In this document: positions 23,712 to 41,087 of the stretch, in pieces
How positions within the stretch are numbered: position 1 is the stretch's first letter
How the letters are laid out: each line of letters opens with the position of its first letter
Source: Haloarculaceae archaeon
GTDB taxonomy: Archaea; Halobacteriota; Halobacteria; Halobacteriales; Haloarculaceae
Length of the DNA: 41,087 nt
NCBI GenBank assembly: GCA_018609945.1
Contig: JAHENO010000184.1
Location: 1 to 41,087, forward strand
Direction of reading: 5' to 3'
Position numbers and translations under genes: made by a program
The notes under the pieces: model-generated
Databases searched by the model: none
Seen by the model: only the letters and a program-made list of their open reading frames with translations
Told to the model about the DNA's origin: nothing

Positions 23712-23756
23712 GCCTCTGTTTGGGATTGTGCGGACAGAGGGAGCGCCAGCGAGAGC

Positions 23757-23763: not shown

Positions 23764-23787
23764 GTGGCCCGTCACGAATCGGGCACC

Positions 23788-24054: not shown

Positions 24055-24116
24055 TGGCGTCGGTGGCTTGTCCGGGAGGCCAAACTTTCGAGTGCTGGCG
24101 GGAACGAACTCGGACA

Positions 24117-24539
24117 ATGCCGGTCCGTGGACGGCCACTTTCAGTCTGGCTCCTGGGGGTACTGCTCGGGCAGCTTTCGGTTCGTGGATTCGTCGGCGGT
24201 GGTGCCCTCGTGGTAGACCATTCCGGCAGAATCGTCGGGACCTCGACCACCCCACTCGATACTATCCCGGTCAGTGACTTCCTCGTTCCCGGTCTCGTCC
24301 TGATTCTCGCGTTCGGTCTCTTGCCTGCGAGCGTCTGCTACGGCCTCTATGCGGGCCGTCGGTGGGCATGGCTGGCAGCTATCGCTGTCTCGCTGGCACT
24401 TCTACTGTGGATCGTCGTCGAGGTACTTCTCGGTTTTTTGCGGCCAACAGTGTTCCTGAACCTCGGGACGGCGATCGGTATCGGCGGAGTCGCGATGTAC
24501 CCGGCAGTTCGACGTGACCTCCGTGGCGCGAGGAAGTAG
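24117..24539 (+). CDS. Small hypothetical membrane protein
   Basis: Several hydrophobic segments (SVWLLGVLLGQLSV, FLVPGLVLILAFGLLPASVCYGLYAG, WAWLAAIAVSLALLLWIVVEVLLGFL); no recognised family. Confidence 0.55.
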   Translation: MPVRGRPLSVWLLGVLLGQLSVRGFVGGGALVVDHSGRIVGTSTTPLDTIPVSDFLVPGLVLILAFGLLPASVCYGLYAGRRWAWLAAIAVSLALLLWIVVEVLLGFLRPTVFLNLGTAIGIGGVAMYPAVRRDLRGARK

Positions 24540-24568
24540 CCTCTCCAGCCCCGTCTCGGCTGGAATAA

Positions 24569-24584
24569 TTGGCACGGGTGCCAA
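24569..24584. promoter_or_regulatory. Palindromic candidate operator abutting a TATA-like element
   Basis: TTGGCAC-GG-GTGCCAA perfect 7-bp arms, followed by CC-ATTATAAG (24587-24594). Confidence 0.5.
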
Positions 24585-24728
24585 CCATTATAAGTGACGC
24601 TGTACATATTCCACGAACGAGGCGGTGCGTCCTCGACCGACTACTGTCCGGTTGCGCTCGTCCGGACTGCCGGACGCGGGCGGTCGGACGGCTGTCGGTC
24701 GGGTGCGCGAAGTAACGGAGGGATACTC

Positions 24729-25259
24729 GTGGAAATCGAACTGAATATAAACGGAACGCCGACGACGATGGAGGCCGACGAGGAGGAGGACCTGGCGACA
24801 GCACTGCGGGCGGCCGGGTACAAGGGCGTCAAGTGTGGCTGTGACGGCGGCGTCTGTGGCGCCTCGAAGGTCATCATCGACGGCGAGGCGCGGATGGCCT
24901 GCGGAACCCCCGCCCGGGAGGCCGATGGCAGCGAGATAGAGACCATCGAGAACCTCGGCACTCAGGAAGACCTGCACCCGATCCAGCAGTCCTTCGTCGA
25001 CCACTTCGCGGTCCAGTGTGGGTTCTGTATCCCGGGGATGATCATGGAGGCGAAGGACCTCCTCTCGGAGAACCCCGACCCCTCCGAGCGCGAAATCCGG
25101 GCGGCCATCGACGACAACGTCTGCCGGTGTACGGGCTACCAGAAACCGGTCGAGGCGATTCGCGACGCGGCCGGCCGACTCGACGGCGGGGCCGTCACGA
25201 CCGACGGGGGCAACGCGAGCAACGAGGACTCCCCGACCGGAGGTAATTACAGTGACTGA
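24729..25259 (+). CDS. [2Fe-2S] small subunit of molybdenum hydroxylase 1 (CoxS/XdhC-subunit type), atypical Cys motif
   Basis: VEIELNINGTPTTMEADEEEDLATALRAAGYKGVKCGCDGGVCGASKVIIDGEARMACG...QCGFCIPGMIMEAKDLL...DDNVCRCTGYQKPVEAI; GTG start; 8-nt overlap with the large subunit. Confidence 0.88.
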   Translation: MEIELNINGTPTTMEADEEEDLATALRAAGYKGVKCGCDGGVCGASKVIIDGEARMACGTPAREADGSEIETIENLGTQEDLHPIQQSFVDHFAVQCGFCIPGMIMEAKDLLSENPDPSEREIRAAIDDNVCRCTGYQKPVEAIRDAAGRLDGGAVTTDGGNASNEDSPTGGNYSD

Positions 25260-27690
25260 CAACGATACGCGACCCGACGGCGGCACAGCGTCCCGCGCGG
25301 ACGCCGACGCGGAGGTAGACGACATCGAGGGTTCGCTGGACGTCGACGAGCCCGCGAACAACCGACTCGACCCCGAGGAGCGAAAGAGCGTTTCCCGGCC
25401 GACGGAGAAACACGACGACCGCAAACTCGTCACAGGGGAGGCGAAGTACACCGCCGACTACGACGAACAGTTCCCGGATCTGGCCCACGCGTCGGTGGTG
25501 CGCAGCGACATCCCACACGGACGGGTCGTGGATATCGACACGAGCAGGGCCGAGTCGATAGACGGCGTACTGGCCGTCCTGACGCCCTGGTCAGAGGAGG
25601 TTCCGGACACGAAGTACACCAGTGCCGGCCAGTCCTACCCCGAACCCAGCCCGTGGGACATGAACGTCCTCAACGACAAAGTGCGGTACGTCGGCGACCC
25701 GATCGCGGCAGTCGCCGCTGAAGACGCCGAGACGGCCGAGGCCGCAGCCGAGGCGGTCGAAATCGAATACGAGGAACACGAGCACGTCCTCGACGCCGAG
25801 GCGGCCTTCGACGAGGACGCCCCGCAACTGTTCGATCCCGATGACGTCGAGAACAAGATCGTCGGTCACGACTACGAGCGCAACCGGATGTCCCACATCG
25901 GCGGGACGCTGGGTAACGTCGACGCCGCCTACGACCGCGATGACGTCCACGTCCACGAATCGGAGTGGGAGACGATCCGCCAGTCCCACGCCCAGGTCGA
26001 ACTCCACACCACCCTCGCGTACACCGACGAGGACGACCGGAAAGTCGTCATCACGAGCACCCAGGTACCGAACCACACGCGCCGGCAACTCTCGCACCTG
26101 TTCGACATCCCGATCCGCGACATCCGCGTCAAGAAACCCCGCGTGGGCGGCGGGTTCGGCGGCAAGCAGGCGATGGTCGTGGAACCGATTCCGATGGCGC
26201 TGATGCTCGCCACGGGACGGCCCGTCATCTACGAGGCCACCCGCGAGGAGGAGTTCCAGGCGATGCGCTCGCGCCATCCCATGGCGGTGTGTGCCAAGAG
26301 CGCGGTCACCGAGGACGGCGACATCGAGGCCCTGGAACTGTACGCCCTCTCGAACACCGGTGCCTACGGGAGCCACGGAATGACAGTGGCCGGCAACGTC
26401 GGGAGCAAGCCCATGCCGCTGTACTCGAAGGTCGAGAACGTGCGCTTCGAGGCCGACGTCGTCCACACCAACACGCCCCAAACGGGCGCGATGCGCGGCT
26501 ACGGCGCCCCCCAGGGCACGCTCGCGCTCGAAGGACACCTCGACGAGGTTGCCCGTGACCTGGGTCTGGACCCCATCGAACTCCGACAGGACCACTACAT
26601 GGAGGAGGGCGACCTCGACGAGATCGCCGGGATGATGGGCGGCGAGGGCGCGGAGCGGGTCATCCGCTCGTGTGGCCTAGACGAGTGTGTCGAGCGCGGC
26701 ATGGCGGCCATCGGCTGGAACGAGATCGAACAGCCCGACGCCGAGCACCTCCACCGCGGCGTCGGGATGGCCCTCTCGGCACAGGGGACCGGCGTCGCAG
26801 GCGACGAACTCGGCGGCGCACAGATCATGATGAACGAGGACGGCTCCTTCCACCTGATGGTGGGGGGCGTCGACATCGGCACGGGAGCCGACACCGCCTT
26901 CGTCCAAATCGCCGCCGAGGTGTTGGGCTGTGCCGAGCAGGACATCGTCGTCAAGACCTCCGACACGGACAACACGCCCTTCGATTACGGCGCCTACGCC
27001 TCCTCGACGACGTACATCAGCGGCCGCGCGGTCAAGAAGGCCGCCGAGGACGCCAAGGAGAAGATCCTCGAGTGGGCCTCGCGGATGCTCGACGAACCGG
27101 CAGCGAACCTCGACACGGCGGGCGGCGAGGTCTACAGCGAGGAGACGGGCGCGTCGGTCACCCTGGAGGAGGTCGGCTACGAGTCGGTCTACGGCGACGA
27201 GACGCGCGAACACATCCTCGGACAGGGCACCCACAGCACCGACGAGAGCCCGCCACCGTTCGCCGCGCAGTTCGCCGACGTGACCGTCGACGAGCGAACC
27301 GGGGAGTTCGATGTGAACAAACTGGTCGTCGCCGTCGACTGCGGCGTCGCGATCAACCCGGGGATGGCAGAAGGCCAGATCGAGGGTGCCAACCACATGA
27401 GCTACGAGATGGCGACCAACGAGGGCATCACCTTCGACGAGGATGGCCGCGCCGAGGTGTCCGACTACGACGACTACGAGTTCCCCACGGCCGCCGAGTC
27501 GCCGCCCATCGAGTCGATCCTCGTCGAGACCCACGAGCCGACGGGTCCCTTCGGGGCAAAGTCCGTCGCTGAAGTGCCCACGAACACGGTGCCGCCCGCG
27601 CTCTCGAACGCGGTTCGTGACGCCGTCGGGGTCCGGATCACGGAGATGCCCATCACCGCCGCGAAGATACGCGAGAAACTCTCCGAGTGA
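25252..27690 (+). CDS. Molybdenum hydroxylase large (Mo-binding) subunit 1 (XdhD/CoxL superfamily)
   Basis: KLVTGEAKYTADY, VGGGFGGKQAMVVEP, GAMRGYGAPQGTLALEGHLDEVARDLGLDP, GAYASSTTYISGRAV, EPTGPFGAKSVAEVPTNTVPPALSNAVRDAVGVRI. Confidence 0.93.
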   Translation: MTDNDTRPDGGTASRADADAEVDDIEGSLDVDEPANNRLDPEERKSVSRPTEKHDDRKLVTGEAKYTADYDEQFPDLAHASVVRSDIPHGRVVDIDTSRAESIDGVLAVLTPWSEEVPDTKYTSAGQSYPEPSPWDMNVLNDKVRYVGDPIAAVAAEDAETAEAAAEAVEIEYEEHEHVLDAEAAFDEDAPQLFDPDDVENKIVGHDYERNRMSHIGGTLGNVDAAYDRDDVHVHESEWETIRQSHAQVELHTTLAYTDEDDRKVVITSTQVPNHTRRQLSHLFDIPIRDIRVKKPRVGGGFGGKQAMVVEPIPMALMLATGRPVIYEATREEEFQAMRSRHPMAVCAKSAVTEDGDIEALELYALSNTGAYGSHGMTVAGNVGSKPMPLYSKVENVRFEADVVHTNTPQTGAMRGYGAPQGTLALEGHLDEVARDLGLDPIELRQDHYMEEGDLDEIAGMMGGEGAERVIRSCGLDECVERGMAAIGWNEIEQPDAEHLHRGVGMALSAQGTGVAGDELGGAQIMMNEDGSFHLMVGGVDIGTGADTAFVQIAAEVLGCAEQDIVVKTSDTDNTPFDYGAYASSTTYISGRAVKKAAEDAKEKILEWASRMLDEPAANLDTAGGEVYSEETGASVTLEEVGYESVYGDETREHILGQGTHSTDESPPPFAAQFADVTVDERTGEFDVNKLVVAVDCGVAINPGMAEGQIEGANHMSYEMATNEGITFDEDGRAEVSDYDDYEFPTAAESPPIESILVETHEPTGPFGAKSVAEVPTNTVPPALSNAVRDAVGVRITEMPITAAKIREKLSE

Positions 27691-27727
27691 CTCCCGGCCG
27701 GAACCTCTCCGGGAAAGCTATTTGTGG

Positions 27728-27743
27728 CACGTGACACCACGTG
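27728..27743. promoter_or_regulatory. Two CACGTG boxes spaced 10 bp, upstream of ade
   Basis: CACGTG at 27728-27733 and 27738-27743, just 3' of a TATA-like GCTATTTG. Confidence 0.35.
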
Positions 27744-27801
27744 TGGCTATGCGATTGCGACAGTGTAGCACATCGAGTTCGGCCCGTCCGGAGGCTGGAT
27801 C

Positions 27802-29493
27802 ATGAGTAGTGACGAGGTGGATCTGGTGGTGCGGGGGACGCTGGTGAACGTCAACACCGGCACGCTGTCGAACACGGCGGTCGCGGTCGACGACGGCGAA
27901 GTCGTCGCACTCGAGGAGCGGCCTGCCGAGCGCGAGATCGAGACGGAGTACATCACGCCGGGGCTGATCGACGCCCACATGCACGTCGAGTCGTCGATGG
28001 TCACACTCCCGCGGTACGGCGCGGCGGTCGTACCCAAGGGCGTCACGAGCGTCATCCACGATCCCCACGAAATCGCGAACGTCCTGGGGGCCGAGGGCGT
28101 CCGGTCACTCATCACCGACGCCGCCCACACGCCACTGAAAGCGCGCATCACGGTTCCCTCGTCGGTGCCGGCGTCCCACCTCCAGGACGGCGGCGCGACC
28201 GTCGACGCGGCCGCAGTGGCCGACCTGCTCGAGGAAGACATCGTGACGGCGCTGGGCGAGGTGATGAACATCCCAGGCCTGCTGGCTGGCGACGAGGAAG
28301 TCCACGCCAAGATTGAGGCCGCCCGCGAGCGCGGATTGACCGTCGACGGCCACGCGCCCCGCGTCACCGGGAGTGACCTCCAAGAGGTCGCACGCTACCT
28401 CGACAACGACCACGAGAGCATCGCCCTCCCGGAGGCCCGCGAGAAGGTCGAGGCCGGGATGCGCGTCTACCTCAGAGAGGGGTCCGCGAGCAAGAATCTC
28501 GAGGACCTCGTGGCGCTCGTCGACGAGGTCGATTCCCGGCGGCTCTCGCTGTGCACGGACGACCGGGACGTCGTCGACCTCGTGGAGCTGGGCGGCGTCG
28601 ACTACGTTGTCAGGAAAGCGATAGAACTGGGCGTCGATCCCGTCGAAGCCGTCCAGATGGCGACGCTCAATACAGCCGAGAGCTACGGGCTGCCCTTCGG
28701 TCGCGTGCAACCGGGCGCACCCGCCGATCTGGTGTTGCTGTCCGACCTGCGGTCCTGGGACGTCGACCACGTCGTCGTCGACGGCGAGGTCGATCCGACC
28801 GCGGGCGCCGGCGAACCGCCAGCCTCCGAGATCGCGACCGATACCGTCGCCTTCGACCCCGTCGACGCCGCCGACCTCGCGATCGAGCACGCCGGCCCCG
28901 GCCCGGTCGACGTACGGGTGGTCGACGCCGTCGGCGGACTCCAGACGGCCCGCATGGAGGCTACGGTCCCCGTCGAGACCGACGACCCTCCCGCCGGGAC
29001 GCGTGGCGTCCTCGCGCCGGACAGGGAGTCGGACGTGCTCCCGATGGCGGTCATCGAGCGCCACGGCGGCGATGGAGGCATCGGTCGGGGGTTCGTCCAC
29101 CGGCTGGGCCTCGCCCGTGGCGCGGTCGGGTCGACTGTCGCCCACGACGCCCACAACTGCATCGTGGCCGGGATCAGCCACGAGGCGATGGCACGCGTGG
29201 CGAACCACCTGCGGGACATCGAGGGTGGCGTCGCGGCCTACGATCCCGACCAAGAAACGGTGATGTCGCTCGCACTTCCGGTGGCGGGCCTGATGTCGGA
29301 CGCCCCGCTGGCCGATGTCAAGGAACGCTTCGAGGCGGTCGAGGATCTCGCGCGTGACATCGGGCTGACCCACGAGGGCGGGCTGATGGAACTGTCCTTC
29401 CTCGCGCTGGAGGTCATCCCCGAGTACCGTTTGACCAACAACGGCCTCGTCGATGTCGAGGCCTTCGACTACGTCGATGTATTGGCCGACTGA
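27802..29493 (+). CDS. ade: Adenine deaminase
   Basis: YITPGLIDAHMHVESSMVTLPRYGAAVVPKGVTSVIHDPHEIANVLG, CTDDRDVVDLVELGGVDYVVRKAIELG, GRVQPGAPADLVLL, HRLGLARGAVGSTVAHDAHNCIVAGIS. Confidence 0.95.
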   Translation: MSSDEVDLVVRGTLVNVNTGTLSNTAVAVDDGEVVALEERPAEREIETEYITPGLIDAHMHVESSMVTLPRYGAAVVPKGVTSVIHDPHEIANVLGAEGVRSLITDAAHTPLKARITVPSSVPASHLQDGGATVDAAAVADLLEEDIVTALGEVMNIPGLLAGDEEVHAKIEAARERGLTVDGHAPRVTGSDLQEVARYLDNDHESIALPEAREKVEAGMRVYLREGSASKNLEDLVALVDEVDSRRLSLCTDDRDVVDLVELGGVDYVVRKAIELGVDPVEAVQMATLNTAESYGLPFGRVQPGAPADLVLLSDLRSWDVDHVVVDGEVDPTAGAGEPPASEIATDTVAFDPVDAADLAIEHAGPGPVDVRVVDAVGGLQTARMEATVPVETDDPPAGTRGVLAPDRESDVLPMAVIERHGGDGGIGRGFVHRLGLARGAVGSTVAHDAHNCIVAGISHEAMARVANHLRDIEGGVAAYDPDQETVMSLALPVAGLMSDAPLADVKERFEAVEDLARDIGLTHEGGLMELSFLALEVIPEYRLTNNGLVDVEAFDYVDVLAD

Positions 29494-29668: not shown

Positions 29669-30829
29669 ATGGACGAGTCAACAACTGGCGTGGACAGGCG
29701 AAAGGTTCTCCGAACGCTCGGCGCAGCTGGCATCCTCGGACTGGCTGGCTGTGGCGGCGACGGCGGGGGCGGTGACGGTGGCGATGGAGGCAGCGAGGAT
29801 GGTGATGACAGTAGCGACGGCAGTGACGGGAGCGATGGCGGCTCCTCCGACGGCGGCGGCATGGACTCGATCAACGCCCACTGGGTGTACATTTCGGAGA
29901 TCGGCGACCTGGGCTGGTCGTGGGCACACAACGAGGGCCGGAAAGCCGTCGAAGAGGAGTTCGACTCGGTGAACACTGACTATACGGAGGCAGTCCCGCC
30001 CGGCGAATCGGAACGTGTCTTCGAACAGCTGGCCGGCGGCGATACCGACCTCGTTTTCGGGACGACCTTCGGCTACCAGGACCCGATGTTCAAAGTGGCG
30101 GAACAGTACACCGATACGATTTTCGAACACGCGACGGGGTTCCGGACCCGCGAGAACATGGGTCGGTACATGGGGCGCATCTATCAGCCCCGGTACCTGG
30201 CTGGCCAGGCCTGCGGGATGGTGACCGAGAACAACAACATCGGCTACGTTGCGGCGTTCCCGATCCCGGAGGTCGTCCGGTCGATCAACGCGATGACGCT
30301 CGGTGCACGCTCGGTCAACCCCGACGCGACCTTCAAGATCCGGTGGGTCAACGCGTGGTTCGACCCGCCGACCTCCCAGGAGGCTGCGAACTCACTGATC
30401 GACGAGAACTGCGACGTCATCGCCCAGGAACAGGACTCCCCGGCAGCGGTGAAAGCTGCCGCGGACGCCGGCGTCTGGGCCTCCGGGTACAACGCGCCGA
30501 TGGGCGAGTTCGGCGGCGAGAAGTACCTGATCTCGCCGATCTGGGACTGGGCCGAGTTCTACGTCCCGGAGACCCAGGCAGTCCTCGATAGGACCTGGGA
30601 GTCCGACTTCTTCTGGGGCGGCATGGAGACCGGCGTCCCGACGCTCGACGAGTGGGGACCGAACGTCCCACAGGAGGTCAAAGATACTGTCGCCTCGACC
30701 GAGCAGGAGATCCTCGATGGGTCACTCGACATCTGGGAAGGGACCAAATTCGAGGGCGAGAGCGACGAGTTCCTCTTCCAGGAGATGTCAAGCTTCGTCG
30801 AGGGCGTTGAAGGCGAAGTGCCCGAGTAG
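29669..30829 (+). CDS. BMP-family ABC transporter substrate-binding lipoprotein (nucleoside type), Tat-exported
   Basis: VDRRKVLRTLGAAGILGLAGCGG signal plus Gly/Asp/Ser linker; INAHWVYISEIGDLGWSWAHNEGRKAVEEEF, DLVFGTTFGYQDPMFKVAEQY typical of BMP/PnrA proteins. Confidence 0.9.
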   Translation: MDESTTGVDRRKVLRTLGAAGILGLAGCGGDGGGGDGGDGGSEDGDDSSDGSDGSDGGSSDGGGMDSINAHWVYISEIGDLGWSWAHNEGRKAVEEEFDSVNTDYTEAVPPGESERVFEQLAGGDTDLVFGTTFGYQDPMFKVAEQYTDTIFEHATGFRTRENMGRYMGRIYQPRYLAGQACGMVTENNNIGYVAAFPIPEVVRSINAMTLGARSVNPDATFKIRWVNAWFDPPTSQEAANSLIDENCDVIAQEQDSPAAVKAAADAGVWASGYNAPMGEFGGEKYLISPIWDWAEFYVPETQAVLDRTWESDFFWGGMETGVPTLDEWGPNVPQEVKDTVASTEQEILDGSLDIWEGTKFEGESDEFLFQEMSSFVEGVEGEVPE

Positions 30830-30850: not shown

Positions 30851-31231
30851 CTATTCGTTGGTCGCGATGGCTTCGACCTCGATGGCCGCGCCCTTCGGCA
30901 CGTTGCCCACCTCGATGGCGCTCCGTGCCGGCGGGTCCTCGTCGAAAAACTCCGCGTAGGTCTCGTTCATCTCGTCGAAGTCCTCGATGTCCTGCAGGAA
31001 GATGGTCATCTTGAGGACGTCGCTCATGTCCAGCCCCTCGGCGGCGAGGATGGCTTCGACGTTCGAGAGTGCCTGTTCGGTCTGGACGGAAACGGGTTCG
31101 TCGTCCAGCAGTTCCCCGTCGGTCGTGAGGGGCAACTGTCCGGCAGTGAAGAGGATGTCGCCGTTGGTCGTCGCCTGGCTGTACGCACCCACTGCGGCGG
31201 GCGCGTCGTCGGTACTGATTGTCCGTTTCAT
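30851..31231 (-). CDS. ridA: RidA/YjgF/UK114-family protein
   Basis: DDAPAAVGAYSQATTNGDILFTAGQLPLTTDGEL...LSNVEAILAAEGLDMSDVLKMTIFLQDIEDFDEMNETYAEFF. Confidence 0.93.
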   Translation of the reverse strand: MKRTISTDDAPAAVGAYSQATTNGDILFTAGQLPLTTDGELLDDEPVSVQTEQALSNVEAILAAEGLDMSDVLKMTIFLQDIEDFDEMNETYAEFFDEDPPARSAIEVGNVPKGAAIEVEAIATNE

Positions 31232-31409
31232 GTGCGAGCCGTCGTGGGCCGGTGTCTTGAAACCCGATGTTCAGTGTGTCGGACGCTTTTGTGCCTCGCA
31301 CGACCCCCGGCCCGACCGCCTCCCGTACTCGTGGGGACGACCACCTGTGTTTTTACCCCTGGAACGAAAAGCAGTCCCAACGCAATCCCGGCAACGGGGA
31401 GGTCCCACA

Positions 31410-31916
31410 GTGCAGGTCGAACTCCAACTCAACGGCGAAATGAACACGTTCGAGGCGTCGAAGACCGACAGCCTGCTCGACGTTCTCCGGAAGAACGGCT
31501 ACACGGGTGCCAAACGCGGCTGTGACACCGGTGCCTGTGGCTTCTGTACGGTCATCGTCGACGACGAACCACGGAATTCCTGTGTGATCCCGGCCGCAAA
31601 GGCCGACGGGAGCACCGTCGAAACCATCGAGGGACTCGGCTCCCAGACGGACCTCCATCCGGTCCAGGAAGCCTTCGTCAACCACTCGGCGCTGCAGTGT
31701 GGCTTCTGTATTCCGGGGATGATCATGCGCTCGAAGGCCCTCCTCGAGGAGAATCCGAGTCCCAGCAGAGCGGAGATCCGCGAGGGCCTCTCGGACAATC
31801 TCTGTCGCTGTACCGGCTACGAGAAGATCATCGACGCCGTCGAGGACGTAGCGGGCAGTGCGGCGGGCCAGTCGGGTGATTCCGCGGTCGTGACGGATGG
31901 CGGTGGTCCGGAATGA
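31410..31916 (+). CDS. [2Fe-2S] small subunit of molybdenum hydroxylase 2 (canonical motifs)
   Basis: From GTG 31410: VQVELQLNGEMNTFEASKTDSLLDVLRKNGYTGAKRGCDTGACGFCTVIVDDEPRNSC...QCGFCIPGMIM...DNLCRCTGYEKI; ATGA overlap with the large subunit. Confidence 0.93.
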   Translation: MQVELQLNGEMNTFEASKTDSLLDVLRKNGYTGAKRGCDTGACGFCTVIVDDEPRNSCVIPAAKADGSTVETIEGLGSQTDLHPVQEAFVNHSALQCGFCIPGMIMRSKALLEENPSPSRAEIREGLSDNLCRCTGYEKIIDAVEDVAGSAAGQSGDSAVVTDGGGPE

Positions 31917-34351
31917 GCACTCCCGACGACACTGACGACGGTGACGAACCCGAACGGCTGGACGGTGGCGTCGTCGACCTGCAGGACCCCGACGAGTCGC
32001 TGGACCTGGGGACCTCGCTCTCCGACCGGGAGAACATCACGACCGACCAAGAGAAATACGACGCCCGGAAGATCGTCACGGGCGAGGCCCGGTACACGGC
32101 AGACTACCGCGACCGCTTTCCCGAACTCGCCGAGGCCAGGATCGTCCGGAGCGACATCCCCCACGGCCGGGTGATCGACATCGATACGAGCGGGGCCGAG
32201 GAGATGGACGGCGTCCACGCCGTGATCACTCCCTGGGACGACGTCGTTCCGGACACGCTGTACTCGCCGTCCGGCCAGTCCTATCCGGAACCGAGCCCCT
32301 GGGACACGCGCGTGTTGCGTGAACACGTGCGGTTCGTCGGCGACCCCATCGCGGCGGTGGCCGCCGAGGACAGGGACACCGCCGACCGCGCCGCACGGAA
32401 ACTGGCTGTCGAGTACGAGGAGTACGACGCAGTCTTCGACATCTGGGAGGCCACTCGGCCCGACGCGCCACGGCTGTTCGACGATAGCGAGGTCGAAAAC
32501 GAGACGACCGGCGCGGACTACGAGCGCAACCTCGAATCGCACTTCGAGGGCGAACTCGGAAATCCCGAACGCGTCTTCGAGGCGACAGGCGACGAACAGA
32601 TCCTGGAGACCGAGTGGGAGACGCCATACCAGTCACACTGTGTCCCCGAACCCCACACGTCCATCGTCTACACCGACGAGGACGACCGCTACACCGTGAT
32701 CACGGCGACGCAGGTGCCCTACCACACGCGTCGGCAACTCTCACACGTCTTCGACGTGCCGATCCGGGACGTTCGCGTGGTGAAGCCCCGGGTCGGCGCC
32801 GGATTCGGATCGAAACAGGAGATGGTCATCGAACCCATCGCCCTGGCGCTCCACCGGAAGGCCGGGCTCCCGGTCAAACTGGAGTGTACCCGCCAGGAGG
32901 AGTTCTACGCGATCAGGAACCGCCATCCGATGGCGTTACAGTTCAAAACGGCAGTCGACGAGGACGGCAACCCCCGGGCGATGGACCTCTACGTCCGGGA
33001 AAACTCCGGTGCCTACGGGACCCACGGCATGACCGTCGCGAGCAACGTCGGGACGAAGGCGATGCCGCTGTATCCCCGCGTTCCGCACATGCGCTTTGCT
33101 GGCGACGTCGTGCACACGAACCTCCCGATGGGAGCCGCACAGAGGGGGTACGGCGCACCACAGGGGATGTTCGTGGTCGAGGCCCACCTCGACGAACTGG
33201 CGCGCCGTCTCGGCGAGGATCCCGTCGAATACCGGAAACGCCACGCCGTCCGCGAGGGCGACACCGACCGCGCCGCGGCCATCCTCAAGGACGGCGACCG
33301 TTTCGAGCGAACGATCCGGTCGTGTGGCATCAGGGAGTGCATCGAACGGGGTGCCGACGCCATCGGGTACGACGACATCGACCAGCCCGGGGCCGAGCAC
33401 CTGCACCGCGGCGTCGGGATGGCGCTCTGTGCCCAGGGCAGCGGCGTCGCGGGGAAGGAACTCGGTGCTGCCCAGCTCAAGATGAACGAGGACGGCAGCT
33501 TCATTCTCCAGGTCGGTGGCGTCGACGTCGGCAGCGGCAACGACACGATGTTCACACAGATTGCGGCGGAGACGCTCGGCTGTGAGCCCGACGACATCGT
33601 CGTCAAGTCCTCCGATACCGACATCGCGCCGTTCGATTACGGTGCCTACGCCTCCTCGACGACGTACATCAGCGGCCGCGCGGTCCAGAAGGCCGCCGCG
33701 GACGCCCGCGAGCGACTCCTCGAGTGGGGCGGGCGGCTGTTGGAGGAACCGGCGGAGAACCTGGCGACCGGTGGCGGCGAGGTCTACAGCGAGGAGACGG
33801 GCGCGTCGGTCACCCTGGAAGAGATCGGCTACGAATCGATCTACGGCGACGAGGACCGCGAGCACATCATGGGCCAGGGTCACCACGCGACCGACGAGAG
33901 CCCGCCACCCTTCGGCGCGCAGTTCCTCACGGCCGTCGTCGACGAGGAGACCGGCGAGTACGAGATCGAGGAGATGGTCTTCGCCGCCGACTGCGGTGTC
34001 GCGATCAACCCACCGCTGGTCGAGGGGCAGATCGAGGGGGGCGTCCACATGAGCTACGAGTTCGCGACCAGCGGGACCCTGTCGTTCGACGGGGAGGGCA
34101 ACCCGGAGACGCTTGGATTCCGCCAGTACGGGATGCCCCGGCCGGACGAACAGCCCCCCATCGAGTCGATCATCGTCGAAACGCACGAGCCGACTGGCCC
34201 CTTCGGCGCGAAATCGATCGGCGAACTCCCCACCAACGGCGTGCCGCCAGCGCTCTCGAACGCCATCCGTGACGCAGTCGGGGTTCGGCTGACGTCGCTC
34301 CCCATCGAGGCCGAGGACGTGAAGGCTGCTCTCGACGAACAGCCGGACTGA
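31913..34351 (+). CDS. Molybdenum hydroxylase large (Mo-binding) subunit 2
   Basis: KIVTGEARYTADY, VGAGFGSKQEMVIEP, GAAQRGYGAPQGMFVVEAHLDELARRLGEDP, GAYASSTTYISGRAV, EPTGPFGAKSIGELPTNGVPPALSNAIRDAVGVRL; co-linear paralogue of 25252-27690. Confidence 0.93.
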   Translation: MSTPDDTDDGDEPERLDGGVVDLQDPDESLDLGTSLSDRENITTDQEKYDARKIVTGEARYTADYRDRFPELAEARIVRSDIPHGRVIDIDTSGAEEMDGVHAVITPWDDVVPDTLYSPSGQSYPEPSPWDTRVLREHVRFVGDPIAAVAAEDRDTADRAARKLAVEYEEYDAVFDIWEATRPDAPRLFDDSEVENETTGADYERNLESHFEGELGNPERVFEATGDEQILETEWETPYQSHCVPEPHTSIVYTDEDDRYTVITATQVPYHTRRQLSHVFDVPIRDVRVVKPRVGAGFGSKQEMVIEPIALALHRKAGLPVKLECTRQEEFYAIRNRHPMALQFKTAVDEDGNPRAMDLYVRENSGAYGTHGMTVASNVGTKAMPLYPRVPHMRFAGDVVHTNLPMGAAQRGYGAPQGMFVVEAHLDELARRLGEDPVEYRKRHAVREGDTDRAAAILKDGDRFERTIRSCGIRECIERGADAIGYDDIDQPGAEHLHRGVGMALCAQGSGVAGKELGAAQLKMNEDGSFILQVGGVDVGSGNDTMFTQIAAETLGCEPDDIVVKSSDTDIAPFDYGAYASSTTYISGRAVQKAAADARERLLEWGGRLLEEPAENLATGGGEVYSEETGASVTLEEIGYESIYGDEDREHIMGQGHHATDESPPPFGAQFLTAVVDEETGEYEIEEMVFAADCGVAINPPLVEGQIEGGVHMSYEFATSGTLSFDGEGNPETLGFRQYGMPRPDEQPPIESIIVETHEPTGPFGAKSIGELPTNGVPPALSNAIRDAVGVRLTSLPIEAEDVKAALDEQPD

Positions 34352-34477: not shown

Positions 34478-34849
34478 ATGGCGCACCTCGGATTCCTGTT
34501 GACGGGCGGACCGTTCGACAGCGAGCGGTGGCGGACGGCCTACGAGATGGGCCGGGCGGCGCTCGACGCCGGCCACGAGGTGACCTACTTCCACTACCTC
34601 GATGGGGCGCTCGTCCCGGTCGCTGGACAGGAGTTTCCCGACTGCTCGGACACCGGCCTCTACGACGAGATGCCGGTCGAGAAGTTCCGCGAACTCGTGG
34701 CCGACGGTGCCGAGGTCATCTGCTGTGGCCTCTGCGTCAGCGCCCGCGGAATCGACGCCGAAACCGACTACCCGGAGGGCGTCGAAATCGGTCTCCTGCC
34801 CGATCTGGCGGATATGCTGGGAACTGCAGACAGGGTGATCTCGCTATGA
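34478..34849 (+). CDS. DsrE/TusD-like sulfur-relay protein
   Basis: MAHLGFLLTGGPFDSERWRTAYEMGRAALDAGHEVTYFHYLDGALVPV... ADGAEVICCGLCVSARGI (conserved Cys motif of DsrE/TusD). Confidence 0.82.
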   Translation: MAHLGFLLTGGPFDSERWRTAYEMGRAALDAGHEVTYFHYLDGALVPVAGQEFPDCSDTGLYDEMPVEKFRELVADGAEVICCGLCVSARGIDAETDYPEGVEIGLLPDLADMLGTADRVISL

Positions 34850-34868
34850 ACCCGGGGGTGAGTCCCAG

Positions 34869-35222
34869 ATGAAACGGGACGTGCTCGTGATGCTCACCCG
34901 TGCCCCCTACGGCCGCGTTCACGTGCCGGAGGGCCTGCGGGCCGCCCGCGGCGTGGCGGCCGGATTCGATCGTCACGACGTGACAGTGGCGTTCGTCGCG
35001 GACGGCGTCTACGCCGCCCGGGAAGCGGTCGACCGCGAGGCGCTGAACATGCCCGGCCACATCGCGGACCTGCTCGCCGAGGACGGCGAGATGGTCGTCG
35101 ACGAGGCGGCGATGGCTGCACGCGATGTCCGGCCGGCGGAGATCGCCGGGGACATCGCCGTCGAGTCGGGCGAACGGATAGCCGACCGCGTCCGCGCTGC
35201 GGACCACACACTGGATTTCTGA
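34869..35222 (+). CDS. DsrF/TusC-like DsrE-superfamily protein
   Basis: MKRDVLVMLTRAPYGRVHVPEGLRAARGVAAGFDRHDVTVAFVADGVYAA; located between TusD-like and TusB-like ORFs. Confidence 0.75.
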   Translation: MKRDVLVMLTRAPYGRVHVPEGLRAARGVAAGFDRHDVTVAFVADGVYAAREAVDREALNMPGHIADLLAEDGEMVVDEAAMAARDVRPAEIAGDIAVESGERIADRVRAADHTLDF

Positions 35223-35224
35223 CA

Positions 35225-35482
35225 ATGCTCTATCTCGTCGACGAACCGATGGCAGACCTCGCGTTCCGGACGATTGCCGGTGACGAAGATCCGCGTATCG
35301 CACTGATTCAGGACGGTGTGTTGCTGGCATCCAGGGCAGCCGCGGAAGTCGATGCCCCCATCTACGCCGTCGCGAAAGACGTCGAGGTCAGAGGCGTCGA
35401 CCTGCCGTCGGAGATAGAGCCCGTCCCGTACGACACATTGATAGAACTGGTCGTCGAACACGAAACCAAGTCGTTCGTATGA
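35225..35482 (+). CDS. DsrH/TusB-like protein
   Basis: 85 aa MLYLVDEPMADLAFRTIAGDEDPRIALIQDGVLLASRAAAEVDAPIYAVAKDVEVRGVDLPSEIEPVPYDTLIELVVEHETKSFV; ATGA overlap with the following gene. Confidence 0.75.
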   Translation: MLYLVDEPMADLAFRTIAGDEDPRIALIQDGVLLASRAAAEVDAPIYAVAKDVEVRGVDLPSEIEPVPYDTLIELVVEHETKSFV

Positions 35483-37059
35483 ACCTCTTCGAGGACGTCT
35501 CCGAGATGGTCGCCGACGGCAAGCCTGCGGCCATGCTGACAGTCGTCGACAAGGAGGGATCTGCGCCCCGTGACGTGGGAACGCGGATGGTTGTCACGGA
35601 AGAGTCGGAGCACGGCACAATCGGCGGGGGCACCGTCGAGAGCCTCGCCGTCGACGAGGCCCGCGCGGTCCTGGCCGGCGAGGCCGAACCGGGCGTCCGC
35701 ACCTACGAACTCGACCCGGACGGGAACACTGGCATGGTCTGTGGCGGGAAAATGGACGTCTTCGTCGACCGCCTCGAGGTCCGACCGCGCCTCTACATCG
35801 CGGGCGGTGGCCACATCAGCCAGGAACTCGCGCCGCTTGCCGACCGGCTCGGATACGAGATCACCGTCGTCGACGACCGCGAGGAGTACGCCGATCCCGA
35901 CCTGTTTCCCGATACTGCGGACGTCCTCCACGGGAACTACGGTGACGTGCTCGCGGACCTGCCGATGACAGCGGAGACGGCCGTAGCGGTCGCGACACGG
36001 AGCGGGACATTCGACCAGCAGGCCGTCGGTGCGGCTCTCGACGGCGGCGCCGGCTACGTCGGGCTGGTCGCCAGCGACCGCAAGGCAGAGCGCGTCCTCG
36101 ACTCGCTCGCGGATGACGGCTACAGCCGCGCCGCTCTGGCTCGCGTCCGGGCGCCCGTGGGGCTCGACCTCGGCGGCGGCAGCCCGCCGGACATCGCGCT
36201 CTCGATTCTCGCCGAGATCCACCGCGACCGCCACGACGCCACGGGCGACTCCGAGAACGGGCTGGACCTCGACGACCTGGTCGTCGTGCGCGGCGGGGGC
36301 GACCTGGGGAGTGGGGTCGTCTACCGGCTCCACGCGGCAGGCTATCCGGTCGTCGTCACCGAGGTCGGGGAACCCACAGTCGTCCGTCGCGCGGTCGCGT
36401 TCGGGACAGTGATGTACGAGGACTCGGTCACCGTCGAGGGTGTCACGGGCCGCCGCGCCGAGTCCGTCGACGAGGCCGTCACCATACTCGAGGCCGGTGA
36501 CGTGCCCGTCATCGAGGACCCCGACGCGACAGTGGCGGAGGAACTCGACGCCGCAGTGGTGGTCGACGCCATCATGGCGAAGGGCAAGACCGACACCGGC
36601 ACCCGCCGCGGGGACGCCGACGTCGTGATCGGACTCGGCCCGGGATTCGAGGCCGGCGAGGACGTCGACGCAGTCGTCGAGACGGACCGCGGGCACGAAC
36701 TCGGCCGGGTTTTCTACGAGGGGACTGCGAGCGCCTACGACGGAACCCCGGGCGAACGCCGTGGTTACACCACCGAGCGCGTGTTGCGGGCCCCAGCAGC
36801 GGGTCAGTGGGAGACTGCGGTCGAAATCGGGGACGTCGTGTCCGCGGGGGCGGTCGTCGGCTCCGTCGGTGACCGGCCCGTCAGAGCCGAGATCGACGGG
36901 CTCGTTCGTGGGCTCGTCCACGACGGCGTGTCCGTCTCCGAGGGCGCGAAACTCGGCGACGTCGATCCGCGGGGGGCGGCCGTCGATCACGAGAAAATTT
37001 CCGACAAAGCGCTCTCGCTGGGCGGTGGCGTGCTGGAAGCCGTGTTGCGGTTGCGATGA
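35479..37059 (+). CDS. yqeB: XdhC-family Moco-maturation protein fused to YqeB (EF2563-type SDMH accessory protein)
   Basis: N-terminal XdhC (AAMLTVVDKEGSAPRDVGTRMVVTEE, GTIGGGTVES, NTGMVCGGKMDVFVD, LYIAGGGHISQELAPLADRLGYEITVVDDR); C-terminal YqeB-like (LVVVRGGGDLGSGVVYRLHAAGYPVVVTEVGEPTVVRRAVAFGTVMYEDSVTVEGV, VVDAIMAKGKTDT, VIGLGPGFEAGEDVDAVVETDRGHELG). Confidence 0.9.
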   Translation: MNLFEDVSEMVADGKPAAMLTVVDKEGSAPRDVGTRMVVTEESEHGTIGGGTVESLAVDEARAVLAGEAEPGVRTYELDPDGNTGMVCGGKMDVFVDRLEVRPRLYIAGGGHISQELAPLADRLGYEITVVDDREEYADPDLFPDTADVLHGNYGDVLADLPMTAETAVAVATRSGTFDQQAVGAALDGGAGYVGLVASDRKAERVLDSLADDGYSRAALARVRAPVGLDLGGGSPPDIALSILAEIHRDRHDATGDSENGLDLDDLVVVRGGGDLGSGVVYRLHAAGYPVVVTEVGEPTVVRRAVAFGTVMYEDSVTVEGVTGRRAESVDEAVTILEAGDVPVIEDPDATVAEELDAAVVVDAIMAKGKTDTGTRRGDADVVIGLGPGFEAGEDVDAVVETDRGHELGRVFYEGTASAYDGTPGERRGYTTERVLRAPAAGQWETAVEIGDVVSAGAVVGSVGDRPVRAEIDGLVRGLVHDGVSVSEGAKLGDVDPRGAAVDHEKISDKALSLGGGVLEAVLRLR

Positions 37060-37062
37060 GGG

Positions 37063-38094
37063 TTACAGCCGAACGGGGTCGATCTCGGGCTCTCTCAGTC
37101 GGACGCCGGTTCCGTCTGTGACCCGCCCGACCTCGCGGACGAAGACCCCTCTCTCGGCGAATTCGTCTTCGAGTGTGGCTGTGTGCTCGGGTGACACGGC
37201 GATCAGTAATCCGCCGCTGGTCTCGGCACTTTCGCCGTCTTCCAGTCCGTACCCGAACAGCCGCGAGAGTGCGGGCGTGCCGTCGATGACCGGCAGCCGC
37301 GTTATCTCGACACCGACGCCGGAACGGCTGCCGAGCACGCGTGCCTCGCCGCAGAGGCCGAAGCCGGTCACGTCCGTCGCCGCGGTGGCGTACGCCCGGG
37401 CCACGCGCGCAGCGTCGCGGTTGGGTGTCGTCATCCAGTCGAGGGCGTCCGCGGCTATGTCCCCGATCCCTCGGTCGGTCACGTCGCGGACACTGTCACC
37501 GAACTCGCCGTTACGGACGCGGTGTGCACCCATCGCGGGCTGTGTACCCAGTGGCTTCGTCAGGTAGAGCCGGTCGCCCGGCTGTGCGCCAGCGGTCGTC
37601 ATGAACTGCCCGGGGTCGCCCGTGGCAGTGACGGCACCGCCAGCAATCGGCCACGGGTTCATGGTCGTGTGTCCGCCCGCGACGGTGCCCTCGACGTCCT
37701 CCAGCACGTCGGCCATGCCCGCGATGATCGCGGGCGCGCAGTCGGTGATCGCCCGGGGCAATGCGAGCACGACCATGCAGGTCAGGTTCTCCGTTGCACC
37801 GGTCGCGAACGCGTCGCTCGCGGCGTTGCACGCGGCGACGCGGCCGAAGTCGTAGGGATCGTCGGCGATCGGCGTGAAGAAATCCACCGTCCCGACGAGC
37901 GCGAGGTCCTCGCGGAGTCGTCTGGCGAAGGCGTCCTCGCCGACGCCGAACAGCAGGTCGTCGTCCGCCCGGTCCAGGCCTGCCTCCCGGAGTAGCGCTT
38001 CCAGGTCTCCTTGCCCGACCTTGCACGAACAGCCGTGCAGTTCCGCGAACTCGGTCAACGGCGGGTTCTCGCTTTCCTCCATGTCACCCGTCAT
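37063..38094 (-). CDS. selD: Selenide, water dikinase (selenophosphate synthetase)
   Basis: LTEFAELHGCSCKVGQGDLEALL, VGTVDFFTPIADDPYDFGRVAACNAASDAFATGA, GGHTTMNPWPIAGGAVTATGDP, RLYLTKPLGTQ, TDVTGFGLCGEARVL; start MTGDMEESE. Confidence 0.95.
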   Translation of the reverse strand: MTGDMEESENPPLTEFAELHGCSCKVGQGDLEALLREAGLDRADDDLLFGVGEDAFARRLREDLALVGTVDFFTPIADDPYDFGRVAACNAASDAFATGATENLTCMVVLALPRAITDCAPAIIAGMADVLEDVEGTVAGGHTTMNPWPIAGGAVTATGDPGQFMTTAGAQPGDRLYLTKPLGTQPAMGAHRVRNGEFGDSVRDVTDRGIGDIAADALDWMTTPNRDAARVARAYATAATDVTGFGLCGEARVLGSRSGVGVEITRLPVIDGTPALSRLFGYGLEDGESAETSGGLLIAVSPEHTATLEDEFAERGVFVREVGRVTDGTGVRLREPEIDPVRL

Positions 38095-38327
38095 TCCGAG
38101 GCAGCCTCGTCGGTCACCGTGATCGTCAACTCGAAGTCCTCGCCACCGTCGCTCTCCCCCGAAACCTCGAAGCCGTGTTTCCTGCACGTGCGGCGGAGGT
38201 TCTCCTCGGCGGGTGGATAGTCACCCCGGACGAGTAGCTGCTCGCCCGGGTCGAGATCTCCGAGCCGGTCCCGGACGATCAGCGCCGGCCGCGGACAGAC
38301 CTCGCCGGTCACGTCGACCCGTTCCAT
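38091..38327 (-). CDS. TusA/SirA-like sulfurtransferase-family protein, paralogue 2
   Basis: MERVDVTGEVCPRPALIVRDRLGDLDPGEQLLVRGDYPPAEENLRRTCRKHGFEV; CPxP motif; 4-nt overlap with the selD start. Confidence 0.9.
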   Translation of the reverse strand: MERVDVTGEVCPRPALIVRDRLGDLDPGEQLLVRGDYPPAEENLRRTCRKHGFEVSGESDGGEDFELTITVTDEAASE

Positions 38328-38401: not shown

Positions 38402-39160
38402 ATGGATCTCGCGGGTGCGCTCGGTCTCCGCAATCGAGAGCTTGTCGCCTTCGTCGGCGCGGGCGGGAAGAAAACGGCGATGGCTCACCTCGTCGACGTC
38501 GCCCGCCGCCGGGACCTGTCGGTCGGATACACGACCACGACGCACACGCCACCACCTGCGGACCTGCCACTGGTAGTGGCAGAGGCCGGGGAGCTGCCGG
38601 CGGCGCTGGGGACTGCGCCCTCGCCGGTCGCCTTCGCTTCCCAGCGGGTGTCGGACCCCGAGCGGGCCGCACAGAAGGTCCGGGGATTCGAGGCGGGCGT
38701 TCTCGATGACCTCTTCGAATCCGCCCGGTTCGACTGGCTCCTGGTGAAAGCCGACGGCGCACGGCGCCGCGAGTTCAAGGCGCCCGGCCGGGACGAACCC
38801 GTTATTCCGCGTTCCGCAACACAGGTCCTGGCCGTCGCTTCCGTGCGCGCAATCGGCGAGTCGGTGGCGGCACCGACCGTTCACCGACCCGAACGCGTCG
38901 CTGCCATTGCCGGCATCGACGTCGGCGACGTCCTCACCACCGAGGTGGCGGGCCGCGTCCTGGCCAGCGACGAGGGCGGACTGAAGGGTGTGCCATCCGG
39001 GTCGACGGTGACGCCACTGATTAACAAGGCTGACACCCACTCACAGCGGGACCGAGCGAGAGACGCAATCCGGGAGGCACTCGCGAGGTCCGACCGGCTG
39101 GACCGGGGGCTGGTAACCTCCTTCGAGCGGGACTACTGCGAGGTCGTCGAGCCGTCCTGA
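38402..39160 (+). CDS. yqeC: YqeC-like putative selenium-dependent hydroxylase accessory protein
   Basis: LVAFVGAGGKKTAMAHLVDVARRRDLSVGYTTTTHTPPP, WLLVKADGARRREFKAPGRDEPVIPRSATQVLAVASVRAIGE, PLINKAD. Confidence 0.9.
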   Translation: MDLAGALGLRNRELVAFVGAGGKKTAMAHLVDVARRRDLSVGYTTTTHTPPPADLPLVVAEAGELPAALGTAPSPVAFASQRVSDPERAAQKVRGFEAGVLDDLFESARFDWLLVKADGARRREFKAPGRDEPVIPRSATQVLAVASVRAIGESVAAPTVHRPERVAAIAGIDVGDVLTTEVAGRVLASDEGGLKGVPSGSTVTPLINKADTHSQRDRARDAIREALARSDRLDRGLVTSFERDYCEVVEPS

Positions 39161-39176: not shown

Positions 39177-40157
39177 TTACTCGGTCTCGCGGCTGTAGGA
39201 TTGCAGCAGGGCGGAGGGGACCGCGAGCTGGTCGGTCTTCGTTCTCGCGACCGTGTACGAGAGGACGGCAATCGTCGCGAGGTAGGGGTAGGTCGCCATG
39301 ATCGTCGGGTGGAACAGGAAGTTCAGGACGGGATTGAGCAGGTCGGCGAGGGGCGCCCCGGCTCCGAGCGTCAGTTCGAGGCTCTGGGAGCGCAACTGGA
39401 AGGCGTCGAGGAGTCCGAACAGGTACGCCCCGACGAAGACCCGGCTCGGACGCCACTGTGCGAAGATGACGAGCGCGACCGCGATCCAGCCACGCCCGGC
39501 GGTCATCCCTGGCACCCAGAGTTGGGAGAACGACAGCGAAAGGTGTGCACCGGCCGCGCCAGCGAACGCCCCGCCGACGAGGACGGCCAGATACCGCCGC
39601 CGGAAGACGTTGACGCCCATGGTGTCGGCCATCTCGGGGTCCTCGCCGACGGAGATGGTCTCCAGACCGAGATTGGTCCGGAACAGGAAGTACCAGGAGA
39701 CCGGGATCAACAGGATTGCGAGGAAGTCAGTCGCGGTGCTCTGGAAGAAGGCCGGGCCGATGATCGGGATCTCGACGAGGACGGGGATACTCATCTGCGG
39801 GAACCCCGAGATGGAGTTTTCGACCCACGACTGGCCGAAAAACGTCGTCAACCCCGCCCCCAGGAGCGTCAGCATGACGCCACTGATCACCTGATTGGAC
39901 TTCAGCGTGATACAGAGGAACGCGTGGATGAGCGCCAGGAGAACGCCGAGTCCGGTTCCGACCAGGAAGCCGAGCCAGTAATTGCCCGTGACGACTGTGG
40001 TGGCGAAGCCGCCGAGTGCGCCCACGAGCATCATCCCCTCGACCCCGAGGTTGAGGACGCCGGCGCGCTCGCTGATGACCTCGCCGAGGCCGGCGAGGAT
40101 GAACACGGTGGCCGCCCGGACCGTCGCGTCGAGCAGCCCCGCGATGAATCCCGTCAT
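39177..40157 (-). CDS. ABC transporter permease (nucleoside/BMP-associated, YufQ-like)
   Basis: ATVRAATVFILAGLGEVISERAGVLNLGVEGMMLVGALGGFATT; multi-TM; overlaps the preceding permease. Confidence 0.9.
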   Translation of the reverse strand: MTGFIAGLLDATVRAATVFILAGLGEVISERAGVLNLGVEGMMLVGALGGFATTVVTGNYWLGFLVGTGLGVLLALIHAFLCITLKSNQVISGVMLTLLGAGLTTFFGQSWVENSISGFPQMSIPVLVEIPIIGPAFFQSTATDFLAILLIPVSWYFLFRTNLGLETISVGEDPEMADTMGVNVFRRRYLAVLVGGAFAGAAGAHLSLSFSQLWVPGMTAGRGWIAVALVIFAQWRPSRVFVGAYLFGLLDAFQLRSQSLELTLGAGAPLADLLNPVLNFLFHPTIMATYPYLATIAVLSYTVARTKTDQLAVPSALLQSYSRETE

Positions 40158-41087
40158 CAGTCACCCCCCGCCGGCGTGCCCGGCGCACCACTCGTCTGGC
40201 CGCCGAGCGAGATGTCGACGCGGTAGCGTTTGAAGAACTCGGCCGTGATCAGAAAGAGGATGATGAGCGCCTGGATTACCTCGACGAGGGCTGCTGGCAC
40301 GCCCAGCGCCACCTCCATGCTCGATCCGCCGACGATGAGCACCGAGAAAAAGATCGCGGCGAGCAACACCTTGAACGCGCCGTTCCGTCCGAGCAGGGCG
40401 ATGACGATGGCAGTAAAGCCGTATCCCGGCGCGAAGTCGGCCCGCATCCGGCCCTGGACGCCGGCGATGTCGCTGAGTCCGGCGAAGGCTGCCAGCGCAC
40501 CCGCCGCGACGAACACGAGTACGTAGACCTTGTACTTGCTCATCCCGGCCTGCTGTGCGGCCTCGGCGTTCGACCCGACGAACGTGATCTCGAAGCCCAG
40601 ACGCGTCTTGGTCACGACGACGTACATCAACACGACCATGACCACGGCCAGGAGAAGCCCGGCGTGGACGCCGAGTCCGAACAGGTCGGGGATCGTCGCG
40701 GCCGCGGGCAGCTGCTCGGTCTGGGGGAAGTTGCCAGCCCCGCCCTGCATCGGCCCGCGGAGGAGATACTCCTTGAAGTTCAGGGCGACGAACGTCAGCA
40801 GCAGCGTCGTGATGATCTCGTTGATGTTCCACCGCGCCCGGAGCCAGCCGGGGATGCCCGCGAAGACGGCCCCGGCCGCGGCAGCAGCGAGGAACATCGC
40901 CGGCAGGAGGAGGAACGCCGGCCACGAGAGTGTGATCCCGACCCAGGTGCCGGCGAGCGCACCGATGATCAGCTGTCCCTCCGCACCGATGTTCCAGACC
41001 CCGGCCCGGAGGGGGAGATACACTGCGAGCCCGGTCAAGATAAGCGGGGCTGCCTTCTTGCCGACTTCGGTCAGGCCGAACTCGGTG
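40157..41087 (-). CDS. ABC transporter permease (nucleoside/BMP-associated, YufP-like), N-terminus truncated by the window edge
   Basis: Frame is open to the right edge (..TEFGLTEVGKKAAPLILTGLAVYLPLRAGVWNIGAEGQLIIGALAGTWVG..), so the true start probably lies outside the window. Confidence 0.88.
   Translation of the reverse strand, partial: TEFGLTEVGKKAAPLILTGLAVYLPLRAGVWNIGAEGQLIIGALAGTWVGITLSWPAFLLLPAMFLAAAAAGAVFAGIPGWLRARWNINEIITTLLLTFVALNFKEYLLRGPMQGGAGNFPQTEQLPAAATIPDLFGLGVHAGLLLAVVMVVLMYVVVTKTRLGFEITFVGSNAEAAQQAGMSKYKVYVLVFVAAGALAAFAGLSDIAGVQGRMRADFAPGYGFTAIVIALLGRNGAFKVLLAAIFFSVLIVGGSSMEVALGVPAALVEVIQALIILFLITAEFFKRYRVDISLGGQTSGAPGTPAGGD

Follow-up and report, generated by a model that had tools for sequence, protein, structure and literature searches.

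A DsrE-DsrE-DsrH gene trio coupled to xdhC-yqeB in the selenium-cofactor loci of haloarchaea, a candidate chalcogen relay

Results

Three small genes of the DsrE superfamily lie in the haloarchaeal selenium-cofactor operon

We analyzed a 41,087-nucleotide contig of a Haloarculaceae archaeon (JAHENO010000184.1, forward strand, whose whole length is referred to hereafter as the window), which holds a known selenium-dependent molybdenum hydroxylase (SDMH) locus; YqeB, YqeC and the hydroxylase of that trait are all encoded there (TIGR03309, TIGR03172 and MoCoBD, respectively). Downstream of the genes for the [2Fe-2S] and molybdopterin subunits of the hydroxylase, three small open reading frames (ORFs) run into a gene for an XdhC-YqeB fusion protein, and their products are, by profile comparison, members of the DsrE superfamily (DsrE, DsrE and DsrH, referred to hereafter as TusD-, TusC- and TusB-like). 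It is the place of this trio in the haloarchaeal selenium-cofactor operon that is new, the SDMH trait and its locus being already known. We hold it to be very probable that tusDCB is a working part of the selenium-cofactor trait in haloarchaea, and we propose, with a probability barely above one half, that its products act in a DsrEFH/TusBCD-type complex which relays a chalcogen, most likely selenium, from TusA through the CGxC site of TusD to XdhC-YqeB.

The evidence that ties the trio to selenium is its distribution, which we surveyed across 400 Halobacteria genomes from 87 genera. Pfam DsrH alone recovered 3 of 31 TusB-like genes, an insensitivity that led us to use a family-specific TusB-like profile (A3). 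YqeB and SelD (both above cut-off) and the TusB-like protein (profile A3) mark an identical set of 31 genomes in 10 genera, such that the trio tracks SelD/YqeB in 31/31 carriers against 0/369 of the remainder. The sequence-only reading had called for exactly this comparison, and the outcome bears it out: XdhC_C scores above cut-off in 86 genomes of a 201-genome subset, 66 of which are without YqeB and the TusB-like protein, so that the trio follows the selenium trait and not XdhC alone. A single genus can mix carriers with complete non-carriers (within genus g3, genome G104 is without all three proteins and others have the full set). This co-occurrence is not chance; the naive chance figure for identical sets (~1e-46) was not used, as the genomes are not independent.

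Two further absences define the setting. Neither SelU (TIGR03167) nor SepSecS (TIGR03531) was found above cut-off in any of the 31 genomes, which leaves SelD an orphan in all of them, and DsrC/TusE (PF04358), the usual acceptor for TusBCD/DsrEFH, is missing from every one. The absence of DsrC/TusE also makes a relay for tRNA thiolation, as known from Escherichia coli, unlikely.

The four-gene unit is invariant in order and coupling

The order tusD-tusC-tusB-xdhCyqeB on one strand, with selD-tusA on the other and then yqeC, is held in 31/31 loci, as is a shared ATGA at the tusB/xdhC junction. In the window this 4-nt overlap of the tusB stop and xdhC start falls at 35479–35482, and the coordinates, gene order and overlaps first read from the DNA held up on re-examination, save that the 4-nt overlap of tusA with selD (38091–38094) depends on selD starting at the ATG at 38094, whereas the mechanically called ORF starts further upstream at a GTG. 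The tusD and tusC genes overlap by 4 nt in 30/31 loci, the window being the sole exception (19 nt apart), and tusC and tusB are spaced by 1 to 8 nt. In loci L060 and L062–L065 the hydroxylase genes are at least 5 kb away and the four-gene unit is nonetheless intact. In a profile scan of genome contigs the unit was also present in 8 additional haloarchaeal loci whose flanks were long enough, some of these belonging to organisms already counted. The whole gene set forms an island of patchy distribution, often on megaplasmids; the Haloarcula hispanica locus is on NC_015944.

One locus displays a rearrangement: in L079, from a Halodesulfurarchaeum metagenome-assembled genome, tusD-tusC sits ~5 kb downstream of yqeB at the contig end (L079:7943–8549).

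The trio resembles DsrEFH, with its conserved cysteines confined to a CGxC loop of TusD

Searches with profile hidden Markov models assign the three adjacent proteins to PF02635, PF02635 and PF04077, each above the curated Pfam cut-off, as the sequence-only reading had supposed. Scores against the NCBIfam equivalog models stay below the cut-offs for TusD (19.8 bits, cut-off 89.25), TusC (26.5 bits, cut-off 94.15) and TusB (36.9 bits, cut-off 49.2). An AlphaFold2 model of the TusD-like protein matches YchN (1jx7), DsrE (2hy5_A) and Sulfolobus DsrE/F (3mc3); its confidence is modest (pLDDT 67), and we therefore take from it the fold class only. Profile searches match the TusC-like protein to DsrF (2hy5_B, E = 1.2e-6) and the TusB-like protein to TM0979 (1rhx, E = 3.3e-7). 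These closest structures, taken together, point to a DsrEFH-type trio.

The TusD-like protein is among the best conserved of the set (mean column identity 89%). In the window it contains Cys56 as well as loop residues Cys82, Cys83 and Cys86, so that the single conserved cysteine originally predicted has to be recast as a single CxxC site: the C83-G-L-C86 motif is invariant in every copy examined, whereas Cys82 is Ser or Val in L080 and L079 (the L079 motif reading VCGLC in place of CCGLC). Cys83 aligns with Cys78 of Escherichia coli TusD (MAFFT alignment, with the register uncertain within the CxxC). The other half of that prediction stands, in that the TusC- and TusB-like ORFs of the window contain no cysteine; across the 31 genomes TusB has none at all, including any counterpart of DsrH Cys20, and TusC has only non-conserved ones. 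CGxC was considered as a diagnostic mark of selenium use and rejected in that role: CxxC is also present in YchN and in archaeal TusD proteins outside the selenium trait, which makes the motif supporting rather than diagnostic.

Comparison with the known TusBCD/DsrEFH complexes (E. coli, 2d1p; Allochromatium vinosum, 2hy5) reveals the same three families in the same order, D-C-B (E-F-H), with the D/E subunit alone carrying the cysteine needed for transfer. Transfer by the E. coli and A. vinosum complexes requires only Cys78 of TusD/DsrE; in A. vinosum, DsrH Cys20 is nonetheless important in vivo (PMC3397948). The haloarchaeal trio departs from these relatives in having a CxxC in place of the single Cys78, a cysteine-free TusB and no DsrC/TusE partner.

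Conserved cysteines of XdhC, TusA and SelD

Cysteines that could take part in such a transfer are also conserved in the neighboring proteins. XdhC Cys88, in a CGG motif, is invariant (31/31) and, on the strength of that motif, is the likely counterpart of Rhodobacter capsulatus XdhC Cys82. XdhC-type proteins have one conserved cysteine (Cys82 in R. capsulatus), suspected to be a sulfur carrier or a ligand of the molybdenum cofactor (Moco), and in R. capsulatus NifS4 sulfurates Moco on XdhC (PMC2997495). Both systems share XdhC domains with an invariant cysteine; in haloarchaea, however, XdhC forms one protein with YqeB, its gene shares an operon with tusDCB, and that operon has no desulfurase gene. 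Cys11 (of the CPxP motif) and Cys48 of the TusA-like protein are both invariant, as is the Cys-x-Cys-Lys motif of SelD.

For YqeB, the AlphaFold2 model (pLDDT 94) has a C-terminal domain like that of biotin carriers (5gu8, TM 0.78 by target), in agreement with the AccB resemblance noted for Clostridioides difficile YqeB (PMC11448449), and an N-terminal part that is Rossmann-like, with no good PDB match. A cysteine acceptor within YqeB was rejected, there being no invariant cysteine across haloarchaeal and bacterial YqeB; Cys 513 of haloarchaeal YqeB is Ser in the window.

Relation to YedF and to other archaeal TusDCB proteins

The SDMH locus was first described from Haloarcula marismortui pNG700 (Haft & Self, 2008, PMC2276186; Zhang et al, 2008, PMC2432076), with an orphan SelD, XdhC-YqeB fusion, YqeC, TusA/SirA-like gene and hydroxylases; in the accessible text of these two papers the DsrE-DsrE-DsrH trio goes unmentioned. 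The H. marismortui public record (pNG7236–7246) has the trio, annotated DsrE, DsrE and hypothetical, at 250575–249606, where it fills the gap between the hydroxylase (250677–252842) and the yqeB fusion (249609–248032). The window therefore matches that locus in its xdhC-yqeB fusion, orphan selD, TusA/SirA-like gene, yqeC and hydroxylase genes, and in having the trio at the identical place. A literature search confined to open-access papers turned up no report that connects DsrE/Tus proteins with SDMH or with haloarchaeal YqeB.

In bacteria the picture differs. Several bacterial YqeB loci have selD with TusA or YedF; Enterococcus faecalis displays the order mocA-sclA-selD-yedF-DUF3343-yqeC-yqeB, and its YedF joins a TusA domain with CPxP to a DsrE domain with CGAC. 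Within the flanks of ~69 bacterial YqeB loci we found no tusDCB using haloarchaeal profiles and one YedF sequence, queries that could miss remote DsrE relatives. YedF is stated to be absent from archaea, where the selenium-cofactor trait was placed in Halobacteriales only (Lin et al, 2015, PMC5322559). YedF (TIGR03527) and the haloarchaeal proteins share the TusA CPxP, the DsrE-type CGxC and adjacency to selD in an SDMH locus. In haloarchaea, by contrast, the TusA and DsrE parts are separate genes on opposite strands, TusC and TusB subunits are added, and tusDCB is coupled to xdhC-yqeB rather than to selD; YedF is the best NCBIfam model for the TusA-like protein, well below its cut-off (32.5 bits against 110), and does not match the TusD-like protein. 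The position of YedF beside selD in bacterial SDMH loci suggests that haloarchaeal TusA and TusDCB occupy its functional slot.

The sequence-only reading had seen in these genes a split, YedF-like relay. As a description of function this remains apt (TusA plus a CGLC-bearing TusD-like protein, against the CGxC of YedF), but not as one of descent: the local alignment of TusD with YedF is weak (hhalign probability 12%), and literal YedF ancestry was accordingly rejected. Neighboring DsrE, DsrE and DsrH genes are also found in L157–L160. These loci come from archaea of the same phylum that are not halophilic and whose genomes have no SelD above cut-off. In two of these (L158 and L159) tusD-tusC-tusB are adjacent, TusD has CPRC, and the haloarchaeal TusD profile matches such SelD-less proteins with E down to 7e-18. 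Since an archaeal TusDCB with CxxC exists without SelD, recruitment of archaeal TusDCB into the selenium-cofactor operon would be the more economical, and the more likely, reading of these sequences than the splitting of a YedF. The trio of L158 and L159 adjoins a gene with an Fe-S motif of C-x2-C-x4-C type.

Features of the locus and its surroundings

Features of the SDMH locus in the window (coordinates in nucleotides of the 41,087-nucleotide stretch)
Feature	Position	Strand	Profile match and remarks
Molybdenum hydroxylase [2Fe-2S] subunit	30987..31916 (true start within ORF, ~31.4 kb)	+	Fer2 and Fer2_2
XdhA-like large subunit of the molybdenum hydroxylase (presumed client)	31913..34351	+	MoCoBD domains; 601 bits to an XdhA-type NCBIfam model, short of its equivalog cut-off
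tusD (TusD/DsrE-like, 123 aa)	34478..34849	+	PF02635 DsrE 74 bits (cut-off 22.7); C83-G-L-C86 (CGxC) loop
tusC (TusC/DsrF-like, 117 aa)	34869..35222	+	PF02635 DsrE 35.4 bits
tusB (TusB/DsrH-like, 85 aa)	35225..35482	+	PF04077 DsrH 33.3 bits (cut-off 24.4)
XdhC-YqeB fusion	35479..37059	+	XdhC, N-terminal half: PF02625 XdhC_CoxI and PF13478 XdhC_C; YqeB, C-terminal half, 36280–37053: TIGR03309 351.7 bits (cut-off 220)
SelD, selenophosphate synthetase	37063..38094 (ATG 38094 proposed start; ORF call extends to 38187)	-	TIGR00476 253 bits (cut-off 125)
TusA-like carrier, 78 aa	38091..38327	-	PF01206 60 bits; CPxP
YqeC, selenium cofactor biosynthesis protein	38402..39160	+	TIGR03172 175 bits

The window holds two separate pairs of genes for [2Fe-2S] and molybdopterin subunits (24594–27690 and 30987–34351), as do most of its relatives; no FAD subunit was recognized beside the second pair. 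A second TusA-family gene (23728–24054, +, PF01206 47.8 bits) adjoins the first pair, and loci L056, L066 and L081 also have a second TusA some kb away. The stretch from 11618 to 29493 reads as a selenium-linked island of purine/ureide catabolism that parallels the E. coli ygeW-ygfO region, with genes for an SsnA-like aminohydrolase, an allantoinase-like protein, a threonine-synthase-like pyridoxal phosphate enzyme, carbamoyltransferase, carbamate kinase, YgeY (above its cut-off), hydantoinase/carbamoylase, 5'-deoxyadenosine deaminase and adenine deaminase. Genes on either side of the locus (29669–30829, 39177–41038) encode a substrate-binding lipoprotein of the BMP/PnrA type and two permeases of the BMP type, which probably form a nucleoside or purine importer. 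Downstream of yqeC, the Haladaptatus halobius locus (L071:12530–13576) has moeA and genes for a member of the cysteine synthase family and a nucleotidyltransferase of the YgfJ type.

Discussion

A proposed route for selenium to the molybdenum cofactor

SelD makes selenophosphate. Our proposal is that the TusA-like protein would pick up selenium, as perselenide or from a desulfurase or selenocysteine lyase, and that a TusDCB complex would take the chalcogen onto the CGxC of TusD, TusC and TusB serving as scaffold (a division of labor suggested by their family). XdhC-YqeB may then accept it at or near Cys88, where Moco would be bound and its oxo ligand replaced, and the loaded cofactor would finally be inserted into the neighboring molybdenum hydroxylase. 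We infer the formation of the complex, the direction of transfer, the acceptor and the identity of the atom as selenium rather than sulfur from these gene and protein features, and our confidence declines as the scheme becomes more specific: chalcogen delivery to XdhC-YqeB with selenium as the main atom strikes us as evenly balanced, and we advance only tentatively a dedicated haloarchaeal relay, from TusA to the TusD CGxC within TusDCB and on to XdhC Cys88, that would bring selenium as protein-bound perselenide to Moco on XdhC-YqeB.

Several observations argue for a selenium relay. The lack of SelU and SepSecS leaves SelD without any other known client in the 31 genomes; the four-gene unit stays intact even where the hydroxylase genes lie at a distance; and E. 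faecalis YedF, with its TusA and CGAC-bearing DsrE domains, occupies the equivalent position beside selD. Weighing on the other side, tusDCB is missing from C. difficile and from many YqeB loci of bacteria, so that the selenium-cofactor trait in general does not require it, and the frequent residence of the island on megaplasmids means that the co-occurrence could in part reflect shared inheritance. The CxxC-bearing TusDCB of archaea with no SelD above cut-off indicates a selenium-independent use elsewhere, the DsrH Cys20 that A. vinosum requires in vivo is missing here, and the presence of selenium on any of these proteins is a prediction.

Alternative roles for the trio

The alternative that survives best, although we judge it unlikely, is a sulfur relay, in which TusA and TusDCB serve these same hydroxylases by bringing sulfur to XdhC-bound Moco (or into dithiolene or Fe-S assembly), and SelD and YqeB handle selenium separately. 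Sulfur is the cargo of every characterized TusBCD/DsrEFH complex (PMC3397948), XdhC is an established chaperone of Moco sulfuration (PMC2997495), and translational coupling ties tusDCB to the xdhC end of the fusion; yet the occurrence of the trio follows SelD exactly, and XdhC genes without a TusB-like partner (those of the 66 Halobacteria genomes described above, and the two further XdhC genes in the genome of the window, which has one TusB-like gene) indicate that ordinary sulfuration manages without it.

Next comes a role in redox or quality control, likewise doubtful, whereby the TusD CxxC would be a dithiol reductant, or a holder of selenide or perselenide against the build-up of free selenide, outside the line of Moco delivery. 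Dithiol redox sites typically have a CxxC, and YchN, the best structural match of the TusD-like protein, also has one; selenium redox chemistry or detoxification has moreover been suggested for the CGXC of YedF (Lin et al, 2015, PMC5322559). Such a role would sit poorly with the strict coupling of the trio to xdhC-yqeB rather than to selD-tusA, and with TusC and TusB, which are of no use to a simple dithiol and are nevertheless kept in all 31 genomes.

It is quite improbable that tusDCB is a mere passenger on a shared mobile island, with no role in the selenium trait, as the patchy cluster and its frequent location on megaplasmids might suggest, because gene order and the 4-nt overlap are constant in 31/31 loci even though the spacing and the flanking hydroxylase genes are variable, few of the proteins are as well conserved as TusD, the rearranged tusD-tusC of L079 is still retained in the cluster, and some genera hold both full carriers and complete non-carriers. 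A tRNA 2-thiolation relay of the E. coli TusABCD kind is less credible still despite the identical protein families, since tRNA thiolation should be general and the trio is confined to 31/400 Halobacteria, exactly the SelD set, with no TusE/DsrC partner; distribution and this absence likewise led us to reject DsrAB-type sulfur metabolism.

Implications

The insertion of selenium into molybdenum hydroxylases has been described as the least understood use of this element, with no known mechanism leading from selenophosphate to the cofactor, and in C. difficile growth on xanthine and urate needs both yqeB and selD (PMC11448449). Being always co-operonic and found only in genomes with the selenium trait, the trio provides strong new candidates for the missing delivery step. 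In the Halobacteria examined, a TusB-like gene beside YqeB is a marker that matches the selenium trait exactly. The coupled unit of a chalcogen-transfer trio and XdhC-YqeB supplies concrete proteins and cysteines in culturable archaea that are not pathogenic, Haloarcula hispanica and H. marismortui among them. If the proposed relay is correct, it would be the first dedicated selenium use of a TusBCD/DsrEFH-type complex, extending these complexes from sulfur to selenium and supplying the step from selenophosphate to the selenium-containing molybdenum cofactor.

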